Shown one piece after another: positions 697 through 58,539 of a stretch of 64,000 nt of DNA (the stretch's first letter is position 1; every line of letters begins with the position of its first letter). The notes under the pieces are model-generated. The model was not told the origin of the DNA. It saw nothing but the letters and a program-made list of their open reading frames with translations, and did not search any database. The stretch spans positions 30,541 to 94,540 of the forward strand of contig JADYXW010000041.1 in NCBI GenBank assembly GCA_020853975.1, read 5' to 3'. This DNA is from Phycisphaerales bacterium. Lineage in GTDB: Bacteria; Planctomycetota; Phycisphaerae; Phycisphaerales; UBA1924. The position numbers and the translations under genes are program-made.

Positions 697-1525
697 CTCG
701 CCCGTCCCGGTCATCGTCGGAAACGGCGGACTCCTCGTGATCGAGGCTTTCGTCTGAGTCATCCGCTCCCCAAGCGAGCTTGCATGCCTCGAGTATGCCG
801 ATGAGCTGGAGATCGGGCACGATGTGCTCGACCAGGTCGTGGTTCTCAAAGAGGAGAGCCGCGTCCCCACCGGTCGCGATGATCTGCGGGAACGCGCCGT
901 AAAACTCGGCGTATCGCTCGATGGTCTCTCGCACCGCGCCGCGTGCAGCCGCGAGCACGCCCAGGAGCATCGCGTGCTGGGTGTCGCGGCCGAAGGGGCC
1001 GAGGGCAGGGTCGGGCGGCTCGAACCGCACCGCCGGAAGCTGCGCGGTGCGTGCGTGAAGGGCCGCGAGCATCATGCCCAGACCGGGCGCGATACACCCG
1101 CCATGGAAGACGCCCTCGCCATCCACGAAGTCCACCGTGATCGCCGTCCCCGCGTCAACGATGATGCACGCCTGCTCTGCGCGAACAAAGGCGCCGAGCG
1201 CGCAGAGGATCCTGTCCTGCCCCACGGTCGAGGCGTCCCGGAGCGTGTGCACAAAGGGCAACGGGACATCGGCGCCCGCGTGGAGGGGCGTGACGCCGGA
1301 CTTCCGAACGGCTGAGGCCAGCGCGTCCCGCGCGGGCGGGTTGACGCTGGCGAGAACCACCGGCAGGCCGGGTGAGGCGGCCAACGCTCCGAGAATGGCC
1401 CCGGCGGCGGCGGCCGGGTCATTGCACGGGAACGAGGCCGGGTCGATGAGATCCCCCTTGAGGAAGCGGCCGACGCGCGTACGAGAGTTGTTGACCGCGA
1501 CGGCGATCAGGGAATCGGGCTGCAT
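683..1525 (-). CDS. coaX: Type III pantothenate kinase
   Basis: Predicted to phosphorylate pantothenate, the first step of coenzyme A synthesis, as a type III (ASKHA-fold) kinase. Family features seen are QDR (103-105), IIVDAGTAIT (121-130), GGCIAPG (142-148) and TGGDA (218-222). Length of 280 residues is near the usual 250-260, with a charged Asp/Glu-rich tail. The N-terminal phosphate-binding motif, normally DxGNT, reads AVNNS here (10-14), so the usual Asp is missing. The ATG is preceded five bases upstream by TATTAT and has no Shine-Dalgarno. The 3' end overlaps the MnmE-like gene. Confidence 0.9.
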   Translation of the reverse strand: MQPDSLIAVAVNNSRTRVGRFLKGDLIDPASFPCNDPAAAAGAILGALAASPGLPVVLASVNPPARDALASAVRKSGVTPLHAGADVPLPFVHTLRDASTVGQDRILCALGAFVRAEQACIIVDAGTAITVDFVDGEGVFHGGCIAPGLGMMLAALHARTAQLPAVRFEPPDPALGPFGRDTQHAMLLGVLAAARGAVRETIERYAEFYGAFPQIIATGGDAALLFENHDLVEHIVPDLQLIGILEACKLAWGADDSDESLDHEESAVSDDDRDGRDADP

Positions 1526-1530
1526 GATCG

Positions 1531-1536
1531 ATAATA
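1531..1536 (-). promoter_or_regulatory. TATTAT -10 element 5 nt before coaX start
   Basis: The hexamer TATTAT on the minus strand ends five bases before the coaX ATG. The predicted transcript would start at or next to the A of the start codon (leaderless). No TTGACA-like -35 is seen at the proper distance. Confidence 0.5.
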
Positions 1537-1564
1537 CGGCCGACCGGGGGCAAGATGGTGCCGG

Positions 1565-2626
1565 TCAGGGGATGGGCTTGTTCACCTGGAACCGAGCGAG
1601 GGCCTCGGGTGTCGTGGAGGCCCCGGTAAAGGTGCTGCCCGAGGGGTACCAGTAGTCGACGCGCTCGTAAGACTCGTCCTGCTTGACGACGCGGACGCTG
1701 CCGTCAAAGAACAGGGCGTTCATGACGCCGGAGTGCCGATACGAAAGCTTGACGTTTGAGAGGTTGGCTCCACGGCCGTAGGCGGTCGAGCCGTTGAAGC
1801 CGGGGCCGGAGTCGCAGAACGACCCGAACCGGTTGGGGTTGCCGCTGAGTTCGAAGTCCAGCACGCGGCGGGTCGAGTCGTAGTACCGCGTACCGTCGGC
1901 GGCGAGCACCTTGCTGGAGAGCTGGATGCCGATCTGATCCAGGCGGGGCAGATAGTCGCCCCGGACCGTGCAGGGGTCTCGGAAGCCGGAGGAGGCGGTG
2001 CGCCAGTCCATCCGGGCGGCGCCGGGATTCGGCGTGTAGTAGCGGACCGCATCCGGCATGGCACGTACATCAAACCCCAGGAGTGAGAACCCGGCGGGCG
2101 CGAGGTACGAAACCTGGCGGTATGTGTACCCGGCCTTGATACGCTGGAAGTCGTCGAAGTCCCCGGGAACGCCCGACCCGATGAACAGCTCGTCGTTCAC
2201 GACCCGTGCGGACGGGCAGCCGTACTTGTTGAAGATCTGAAACGTGCGCATCGCGCGGTTCTTGGACAGGCCGGCGGAGTCCCCCACGACCGGGCTGATC
2301 CAGTCGGTCGAGGCGGTCGGCGTGCTCGCGCTGGTATCACCCTCGCAGGATGCGCCGTTGGTGTAGGCGGCCATCGCGCCGCTGGTCCGCTGGCTGGCGA
2401 TGAAGTCGGAGTTGGCTCCCGCGTAGATCATCTGCCCCTGCCCCAGGCCTCGGAGCATGGACTGGCAGATGACGTTTCGGGCGGCCTCTCTTGCCTTGCC
2501 CAAGGCAGGAAGGAGGATGCCGATGAGCAGCGCGATGATCGCGATGACCACCAGGAGCTCGATGAGGGTGAAGCCGTCGGCACGGTGTCGGCGCGCTGTG
2601 GTCGTCGTGGTGGTCATGGTCGTCAT
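1565..2626 (-). CDS. Prepilin-type N-terminal cleavage/methylation protein (pseudopilin-like)
   Basis: A type IV prepilin/type II pseudopilin-like protein of 353 residues. After a Thr-rich, then basic leader ([17 protein letters not shown]) comes the class III signal [19 protein letters not shown], where prepilin peptidase would cut after the Gly. A long globular region follows, ending with a planctomycete-style H-x9-DG motif ([17 protein letters not shown]). It starts four bases after the upstream membrane protein ends, so the two are probably cotranscribed. No secretion or pilus assembly genes are nearby. Role unknown, probably an envelope or surface filament component. Confidence 0.9.
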
Positions 2627-2629
2627 TGG

Positions 2630-56756: not shown

Positions 56757-56762
56757 GGGGGG

Positions 56763-56768
56763 AGCATA
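56763..56768 (-). promoter_or_regulatory. TATGCT -10 element 6 nt before lipoprotein GTG
   Basis: TATGCT, then CCCCCC, then GTG at 56756. It supports the GTG start; no Shine-Dalgarno. Confidence 0.5.
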
Positions 56769-56812
56769 CACAGGGCGGCACGCTCCCGTGTCCCCGCCGC
56801 GCCCCGGTGCCG

Positions 56813-56818
56813 TACGCT
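56813..56818 (+). promoter_or_regulatory. TACGCT -10 element 8 nt before gltX
   Basis: CGTACGCT, then TTTCCCCC, then ATG at 56827. Divergent from the lipoprotein -10 within 45 bp. Confidence 0.45.
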
Positions 56819-56826
56819 TTTCCCCC

Positions 56827-58539
56827 ATGAGCGATTCCCCCGTCGTAACACGGTTTGCCCCCAGCCCCACCGGCCACCTGCACGTCGGCGGTGCCCGGTC
56901 GGCCCTTTTCTGCTGGGCGTACGCCAAGAACCGTGCGGGCCGGTTCATGCTCCGCATCGAGGACACCGACGCCGCCCGGAGCAGCGACGACTCCGCCCGG
57001 GGCATCATGGAGGACCTGGCCTGGCTGGGGATTGAATGGGACGACGGGCCGGCCCTCCCGCTGTCCGATGGGCGGATCGTCGGGGGAGACGGACGGGGCG
57101 TCGGACCCTTTTTCCAGGCCCGGCGGGTGCCGCTCTACGACCGCTGCGCCGAGCAACTCGTGAAGTCCGGGCGGGCCTACCCCGCGTTCGAATCGTCGGA
57201 TGTCATCGACGGGCAGCGCCGCGAGGCCGTGGCGGCCAAGAGAACCTACCGCTACCCCCGCCCGGCGGAGATCGAGCCAGGGCGGTTCAACGACGGGCTG
57301 AAAGCTCGCTGGGACCGCGCGCTGGCGGGGGAGTCGCACGTGCTCCGCTTCGTCGTGCCCTCGCACGAGATCATCGTGCAGGACCAGGTCCTGGGCGAGG
57401 TGAAGATCGCGGCGGGCGAACTCGACGACTTCGTCATCCGAAAGGCGGACGGCTTCCCCACCTATCACTTCGCCGTGGTCGTCGATGACGAAACCATGGG
57501 CGTAACGCACGTGATGAGGGCCCAGGAGCACCTCGCCAACACCCCGAGGCACGTGGCGCTGCAGCAGGCGCTGGGCTTCCGAACGCCCGCGTACGCCCAC
57601 ATGCCGCTCATCATGAACATGGACAACTCCAAGATGAGCAAGCGCGACAAGGCCAAGGTGGCCCGCGCGAAGCTGCAGGAGCGGGTCGCCCAGGGGCTTA
57701 CGACCCAGGACGCCGCCGCCGCCCTCGGCATCCCGCAGGCGGAACTCGCCGCATTCCTCGCGAAGGAGAATGACTCCCTCGCGGTCGCGGAGAAGATCGC
57801 CCGCGTGTACGACGTGCCCCTCCCTGAGATCGAGGTCTGCGACTTCAGAGCGGCGGGGTACCTCCCCGAGGCCATGTGCAACTTCCTGGGCCTGCTGGGG
57901 TGGAACCCGGGGATGAAGACGGCGGATGGCAAGGACCTGGAGAAGTTCGACCTCGCGTTTCTCCGCCAGCACTTCTCCATCGAGCGGATCGGAAGGACCA
58001 ACAGCAAGTTTGACCGTGTGAAGCTGCTCTCGTTCAACGCGGACGCCATCGGGGCTCTGCCGGACACCGAGTTTGCGGCTCGCTGGCGCGGCTGGTGCGA
58101 GGAGTTCGAACCGACGCTCGCCCGCGCCGTCCCCTCGGACCGCTGGGCCTGGCTGGCCCGGGCGGTAAAGGCCCGCGCCCGCACGTTCCGCGACGGGGCC
58201 AAGGCCGCATCCTTCGCGGTCCTCGACGACGCCACCTACCCGTTCGATCCCGCTGCTGTGGCGAAGCACCTGCGGGCTTCGGACGGCGCCGGCCTGCGGC
58301 TGCTCGCGGACGCTCGAACGCGGCTCGCCGCGGCGGAGCCTTTCGAGCCCGAGGTCCTCCATGGCATCCTGGAACAGATGTCCCAACAGCATGGGGGCAT
58401 GGGTCCGGTGGCTCAGCCGATCCGCGTCGCGATCGCGGGAACCGCGGTCAGCCCCCCACTTCCCGAGACCCTCGCCGTGCTCGGGAAGTCTCGGGCGCTC
58501 GCAAGGCTCGACCGGTGCATCGGTCTGGCGTCGACGTGA
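56827..58539 (+). CDS. gltX: Glutamyl-tRNA synthetase
   Basis: 570 residues starting MSDSPVVTRFAPSPTG. Class I motifs: HLHVGGAR (HIGH equivalent) and NSKMSKRDKA (KMSKS equivalent). The ADGFPTYHFAVVVDDETMGVTHVMRAQEH block and the DLAFLRQHFSIERIG block are typical of GltX. Glu- rather than Gln-type by FPTYHFAVVVDD. The C-terminal anticodon domain is complete. The ORF-track start upstream is antisense to the lipoprotein gene. Confidence 0.97.
   Translation: MSDSPVVTRFAPSPTGHLHVGGARSALFCWAYAKNRAGRFMLRIEDTDAARSSDDSARGIMEDLAWLGIEWDDGPALPLSDGRIVGGDGRGVGPFFQARRVPLYDRCAEQLVKSGRAYPAFESSDVIDGQRREAVAAKRTYRYPRPAEIEPGRFNDGLKARWDRALAGESHVLRFVVPSHEIIVQDQVLGEVKIAAGELDDFVIRKADGFPTYHFAVVVDDETMGVTHVMRAQEHLANTPRHVALQQALGFRTPAYAHMPLIMNMDNSKMSKRDKAKVARAKLQERVAQGLTTQDAAAALGIPQAELAAFLAKENDSLAVAEKIARVYDVPLPEIEVCDFRAAGYLPEAMCNFLGLLGWNPGMKTADGKDLEKFDLAFLRQHFSIERIGRTNSKFDRVKLLSFNADAIGALPDTEFAARWRGWCEEFEPTLARAVPSDRWAWLARAVKARARTFRDGAKAASFAVLDDATYPFDPAAVAKHLRASDGAGLRLLADARTRLAAAEPFEPEVLHGILEQMSQQHGGMGPVAQPIRVAIAGTAVSPPLPETLAVLGKSRALARLDRCIGLAST

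Follow-up and report, generated by a model that had tools for sequence, protein, structure and literature searches.

TANNNT hexamers before start codons of a Phycisphaerales genome, their depletion from coding DNA, and a probable role as -10-only promoters of leaderless genes

Leaderless genes led by a TANNNT hexamer were reported in 207 of 953 bacterial genomes by Zheng et al. (2011, PMC3160421), and leaderless transcription was predicted by GeneMarkS-2 in 21.6% of bacterial species, as cited in PMC9581028. In Deinococcus-Thermus, the promoter role of the -10 motif preceding such genes is supported by mutation (2025, PMC12340547). For Planctomycetes, there is a weak pointer, a single species listed as possibly leaderless and/or S1-using (PMC5397173); text searches of an open-licence library turned up nothing relevant to leaderless transcription in Phycisphaerae or differential RNA sequencing in planctomycetes. 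Here, we analyzed a 64-kb stretch of a Phycisphaerales genome (hereafter the window; C41:30541-94540, where C41 is contig JADYXW010000041.1), in which TANNNT recurs a few nucleotides (nt) before start codons. A sequence-only reading of the window had listed 14 genes with such a hexamer and had proposed widespread leaderless transcription.

The source genome (3.12 Mb, 110 contigs, 95% complete) has metagenome-assembled genomes (MAGs) of Phycisphaerales (Planctomycetota) as its closest named relatives. The nearest contig to the window was QWIH01000014, whose dxs product was 94% identical. This public MAG contig (QWIH01000014.1, L013) is filed as the cyanobacterium 'Leptolyngbya sp. PLA1', a plain misnomer, as its dxs region and synteny are those of a Phycisphaerales planctomycete.

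Position, motif and conservation of the hexamer

Genome-wide enrichment of TANNNT at -5 to -8, which had been named beforehand as a test, was strong in a 454-kb sample of the source genome that included the window. Genes were called from codon usage alone, and the hexamer was scored before all in-frame start codons within 60 nt of the coding boundary, with d denoting the number of nucleotides between hexamer and start codon. The counts at d = 0 to 9 were 0, 1, 2, 1, 3, 21, 30, 10, 11 and 2, respectively, and 1-2 hits were found at d = 15-18. At d = 5-8, TANNNT preceded 72 of 932 in-frame candidate starts, compared with 3 of 672 out-of-frame and 13 of 7375 internal in-frame candidates. Where only one start codon was possible, the hexamer was present in 16 of 55 cases (29%; 0, 1, 1 and 2 in control intervals). 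Within the window itself, TANNNT occurred 53 and 49 times on the two strands (0.0008 per position per strand), and 13 of approximately 51 genes carried it (P ~1e-9 to 1e-12 against empirical upstream-region controls of 1.8-3% per gene). The chance expectation of less than one gene in fifty given by the sequence-only reading was thus conservative: its A/T arithmetic corresponds to 1.6% per gene, whereas the actual TANNNT frequency is ~0.3% over four spacings.

A two-signal expectation-maximization (EM) model of starts in the source genome assigned 28% of genes to a leaderless type, 62% to a Shine-Dalgarno (SD) type and 10% to neither. The learned leaderless motif was T A [C/T] N [C/A] T (T.83, A.92, C.49 or T.27, N, C.57 or A.32, T.95). 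Spacing weights were.25,.41,.11 and.10 at 5, 6, 7 and 8 nt, respectively, so that 5-6 nt accounted for 66%, and spacings of 9-12 nt held ~11%. As had been claimed from the window, SD sites were rare in these genes, with GGAG, AGGA or GAGG found in 7 of 110 leaderless-class genes vs 173 of 252 SD-class genes, and no recognizable -35 element was present. Among 95 aligned sites, information did not exceed 0.1 bit at any -35 position, and TTG at the spacing of a TTGACA-like element (16-18 bp upstream) occurred at 8 sites vs 5 in a control region. An extended -10 (TGn) was likewise not apparent, as T at -3 (.17) and G at -2 (.41) were near background, and the hexamer flanks were A/T-poor.

The leaderless share depended on gene context: it was 46% where same-strand genes lay 20-59 nt apart and 39% at divergent junctions, compared with 16% where the gap was <20 nt and 13% where it was at least 120 nt. 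Leaderless-class genes were thus concentrated at operon heads and scarce at distal positions, save for the low share at the longest gaps, where genes were mostly leadered, with SD sites. For SD genes preceded by a gap of at least 60 nt, the upstream DNA held TANNNT at 11 times the density seen in coding DNA, likewise without a -35 element.

When the window was compared with a genome of the same genus (G001, the congener below), TANNNT was retained at 15 of 17 leaderless-class starts, 0 of 25 SD-class starts and 0 of 3 unclassified starts. In 15 ungapped alignments, the T, A and T of the hexamer were each unchanged 14 times, against 59% identity in the flank from -30 to -2. All 14 hexamers of the sequence-only reading were found at the spacing it had given (13 strict TANNNT at 5-8 nt, plus GATACT at kinase 28447), and all 14 keep their class in the congener; this holds for GATACT too, and the gene at 31080 retains its TTG start. 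Two further cases, at d = 9 nt (6283) and d = 10 nt (49438), were also confirmed. Its gene annotations held as well: CoaX, IspH, PrpB-like, RsmB, N-methylation pseudopilin, HisKA kinase, FHA-GAF-HATPase, beta-CASP MBL, KAS, CDO_I, DinG-type helicase, GidB, ComB family, DUF2959 and GltX. The hexamers of the window are as follows.

1531..1536 (-): TATTAT, 5 nt before the coaX ATG (1525); TATCAT with equal spacing in the congener
3217..3222 (+): TACCAT, 5 nt before the ispH ATG (3228)
6268..6273 (+): TAGACT, 9 nt before a glycosyltransferase-4 ATG (6283); leader of ~3 nt predicted
13250..13255 (-): TACGAT, 6 nt before a prpB-like ATG (13243)
15546..15551 (+): TAGAAT, 5 nt before the rsmB GTG (15557); identical in the congener
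21523..21528 (+): TATGAT, 5 nt before a pseudopilin GTG (21534); TACGAT in the congener, with altered adjoining bases
26985..26990 (-): TAGGCT, 5 nt before a beta-helix protein ATG (26979); an addition to the original list
28436..28441 (+): GATACT, non-canonical and outside TANNNT, 5 nt before a histidine kinase GTG (28447); identical in the congener
29327..29332 (+): TATGGT, 5 nt before an FHA-GAF kinase GTG (29338); TATCGT in the congener
31068..31073 (+): TACCCT, 6 nt before a beta-CASP MBL TTG (31080); TATCCT in the congener, TTG retained
34330..34335 (+): TACGCT, 7 nt before a KAS ATG (34343)
37773..37778 (+): TATCCT, 11 nt before the mutS ATG (37790); short leader predicted; also an addition to the list
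43769..43774 (+): TACGCT, 6 nt before a cysteine-dioxygenase-like ATG (43781)
47858..47863 (-): TACACT, 7 nt before a dinG-like GTG (47850)
49449..49454 (-): TACACT, 10 nt before the gidB ATG (49438); short leader predicted
53984..53989 (-): TACGCT, 6 nt before the comB ATG (53977)
56763..56768 (-): TATGCT, 6 nt before a DUF2959 lipoprotein GTG (56756); faces the gltX promoter
56813..56818 (+): TACGCT, 8 nt before the gltX ATG (56827)

Several spacings varied among relatives. The glycosyltransferase-4 hexamer lies at d = 9 nt in the congener too and at d = 6 nt in G003 and G004, the mutS hexamer is TACCCT at 10 nt in the congener, and in G002, a more distant congener, the dinG-like gene has TACGCT at 6 nt. 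The starts of rsmB (15557) and comB (53977) were ambiguous from the source genome alone, with a posterior of only 0.67 for the comB hexamer; the congener keeps the start and hexamer of both. Neither a KAS start at 36410 (posterior 0.3) nor the AATGAT before 28389 was counted as leaderless.

The pairs 56756(-)/56827(+) and 28389(-)/28447(+) stand back to back, with predicted start-proximal promoters ~50 bp or less apart. Both hexamers of the second pair are non-canonical (AATGAT and GATACT), yet they are the same in the congener. Separately, a GC-rich hairpin with A and T runs on its flanks lies between two genes at ~26990-27060 and resembles a bidirectional terminator beside the 26979(-) promoter.

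For ispH, TANNNT was located 5-12 nt before the start in 16 of 30 genes from the genus, family and order (source genome included), and the position of the box slid from 5 to 12 nt among orthologues. In L113, L117 and L126, TATACT is found ~30 nt upstream and is followed by an SD-like word, which corresponds to a leadered form; ispH thus alternates among related genera between this arrangement and a leaderless one (TANNNT at 5-8 nt). In family f38 (G083, G108, G143, G067, G137, G118 and G095), ispH lies in an open frame of ~580-600 aa, about twice the usual length, and a fusion is possible.

Depletion from coding DNA and breadth across Planctomycetota

Depletion was measured for 128 spaced 3-letter patterns against synonymous-codon shuffles normalized for codon-phase TA content. 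TA across codon boundaries (nnT|Ann) occurs at only one third of the synonymous-shuffle expectation in the coding sequences of the source genome, a separate and general TA avoidance. The depletion of TANNNT given by a plain synonymous shuffle (0.31) is exaggerated because such TA is itself avoided, and the TA-phase-normalized figures were used instead. TAnnnT (178 observed, 327 expected; 0.54) and AnnnTA (190 and 280; 0.68) were the two most depleted of the 128 patterns in coding DNA, while control patterns with the final T moved three bases further were not depleted (0.97 and 1.05). The purge was strongest where a Tyr codon precedes a codon whose third base is free (57 observed, 145 expected). 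This is a second line of evidence, independent of the start-proximal peak: the depletion on the antisense strand points to an element acting in DNA and hence to a promoter, as an RNA-level signal cannot account for it.

Pooled dxs loci from 69 relatives gave TAnnnT/AnnnTA ratios of 0.53/0.49 at a G+C content (GC) of at least 0.66, 0.65/0.57 at 0.62-0.66, 0.66/0.58 at 0.57-0.62 and 0.85/0.86 below 0.57 (controls, 0.99-1.04). The start-proximal peak was also present, alongside the purge, in pooled Phycisphaerales loci (~70). Individual genomes were sampled at 40-100 kb each, with gene calling by a seeded model; since EM start models were unstable on samples of ~100 kb, conclusions on breadth were made without them. 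The peak was found in the family of the source genome (G099 and G018). The sample of the congener G002 gave no clear peak (5 against 2.8). Outside the class, it was clearest in G129 (P ~3e-5) and G105 (P ~1e-5) and weaker in G063, G061 and G093. No start-proximal peak was found in the samples of G121 (same class, GC 0.45), G142, G136, G095, G117, G049 and E. coli. In the genomes without a peak, the purge was slight or nil (mostly 0.84-1.0), compared with ~0.5-0.76 in those with a clear one. Overall, the pattern is shared by ~70 loci of Phycisphaerales and by certain other Planctomycetota families of high GC, and not by the AT-richer families sampled.

Promoter interpretation and alternatives

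Bacterial RNA polymerase, which favors a purine as the first base, starts ~7 bp beyond the -10 hexamer. At d = 5-8, transcripts would therefore begin with the A or G that opens the start codon, or with a base next to it. We consider it very probable that the hexamers are -10-only sigma-A promoters that give leaderless or nearly leaderless mRNAs. The -10 interpretation originally proposed for the window is supported by position, spacing, missing SD sites, genomic context, the cross-species footprint and the two-strand purge, from which we infer sigma-A use, the exact 5' ends and a leaderless mode of translation. The housekeeping sigma factor would use the hexamer as a -10 element that works with neither a -35 nor an extended -10, and the polymerase would start 6-9 bp downstream of it, at the purine of the ATG or GTG codon; in the cases at 9-11 nt, transcription would begin one to a few nucleotides ahead of the codon. 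Approximately 28-29% of genes, chiefly those with their own upstream space, would be leaderless or near-leaderless, and 70S or IF2-primed ribosomes would presumably translate their mRNAs. The other genes would use SD sites, many being transcribed from similar bare TANNNT boxes located further upstream. Since such a box would be sufficient by itself, TANNNT would be removed from both strands of coding DNA. By inspection, regions 2.4 and 4.2 of RpoD were ordinary-looking. The 16S gene of the MAG is a fragment ending at position 873, with its 3' end missing.

A broader proposal is that, across Phycisphaerales and several further Planctomycetota families with high GC, leaderless and leadered genes alike need no promoter element beyond the -10 hexamer, and that this has led to a genome-wide purge of TANNNT from both strands of coding sequences, one that follows leaderless use from lineage to lineage. 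We regard this as possible but on balance doubtful. Several observations weigh against these interpretations. Across 20 genomes, depletion correlated with leaderless use (rho -0.74), but GC gave the same value (rho -0.74) and the partial rank correlation was only -0.42; the link between leaderless use and hexamer purging is thus suggestive only and confounded with GC. The hexamer core holds only ~8 bits and ~180 TANNNT per strand persist in the sampled coding DNA, and therefore more than the hexamer may define the promoter. In addition, some of the 17 genes called leaderless at same-strand gaps <20 nt may be false positives, and the cases at 9-12 nt would be short-leader rather than strictly leaderless.

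Alternatively, the hexamer could be a translation signal in a leadered mRNA, either an A/U element bound by ribosomal protein S1 or one that keeps the start region unstructured, with transcription beginning further upstream; signals of this kind have been proposed for Bacteroidetes and Cyanobacteria. Such a signal would suit genes that mostly lack SD sites in a genome that encodes one frame with six S1-domain matches and one IF3, and leaderless and S1 signals were inseparable in Planctomycetes in a previous study (PMC5397173). However, the element consists of three fixed bases, T-A-n-n-n-T, with a little-constrained middle, and is not generally A/T-rich, and its spacing is held to a range of ~4 nt. 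It is also rare where same-strand genes are closely packed, the very junctions at which translation signals would be most needed, and coding DNA is depleted of its reverse complement as well. We consider this explanation very unlikely. We give similarly little credence to the possibility that the hexamers are -10 boxes whose transcripts start 1-8 nt before the codon, giving very short 5' untranslated regions rather than leaderless mRNAs. The spacings of 9-12 nt, seen at 6283, 37790 and 49438, and the sliding box of the ispH orthologues are in line with it, but most of the spacing weight lies at 5-6 nt, and as start sites usually lie 6-8 bp from the -10 box, this leaves no room for a leader. 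Chance, or the picking of start codons that happen to follow TANNNT, has a negligible probability: the starts of the sequence-only reading were indeed chosen by eye and T/A-rich words cluster in intergenic DNA, but the frame control, single-candidate starts and congener footprint are independent of motif-guided start choice and refute it, and P was ~1e-9 in the window alone. A derivation of the TA from the stop codons of preceding genes was rejected, as most hexamers begin with TAC or TAT, and restriction-site avoidance was rejected because the pattern is not palindromic.

Significance and comparison with described systems

The -10-only, leaderless interpretation extends a known but sparsely documented expression mode to Planctomycetota, in a large lineage whose members are mostly uncultured, and gives a rule for correcting start codons in such genomes, GTG and TTG included. 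The promoter logic of an uncultured organism may perhaps be read from what its coding sequences avoid; if the -10 hexamer alone is indeed the promoter, the purge could serve to recognize, from sequence alone, uncultured bacteria in which the -10 box suffices for transcription. The novelty originally claimed for the window went too far, since surveys across bacteria have already covered leaderless genes led by TANNNT (PMC3160421, PMC12340547; GeneMarkS-2 via PMC9581028). Planctomycetes fall outside the groups named in PMC3160421. What is new here is the lineage and the link to hexamer purging; the kind of arrangement is already known.

The genes described here resemble the TA-led genes of PMC3160421, notably those of Actinobacteria, in the TANNNT core, the uninformative middle and the high GC of the genomes. 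They also share the first T ~12 bp before the start and the negative correlation with operon-distal genes, although Planctomycetes are missing from the groups in which that survey names leaderless genes. The Deinococcus-Thermus genes (PMC12340547) are similar in their TANNNT core (top form TACACT), their proportion of about a third of genes, the dispensable -35 and the coexistence of SD genes. Their motif is spaced 6-7 bp before the open reading frame, shifted here to 5-6 nt, and they belong to another phylum. The coding purge is stronger here (0.56/0.66) than in a D. deserti plasmid (0.81/0.78). Under-representation of -10 motifs in coding DNA was described by Froula and Francino (2007, PMC1939733); our analysis tested bare TANNNT on both strands, and leaderless users vs non-users within one phylum. 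Finally, the A/U-rich start regions of non-SD genes in Bacteroidetes and Cyanobacteria (PMC5397173) likewise have A/T bases near the start, but they lack the fixed T-A...T spacing, and an A/U element would have no antisense effect.

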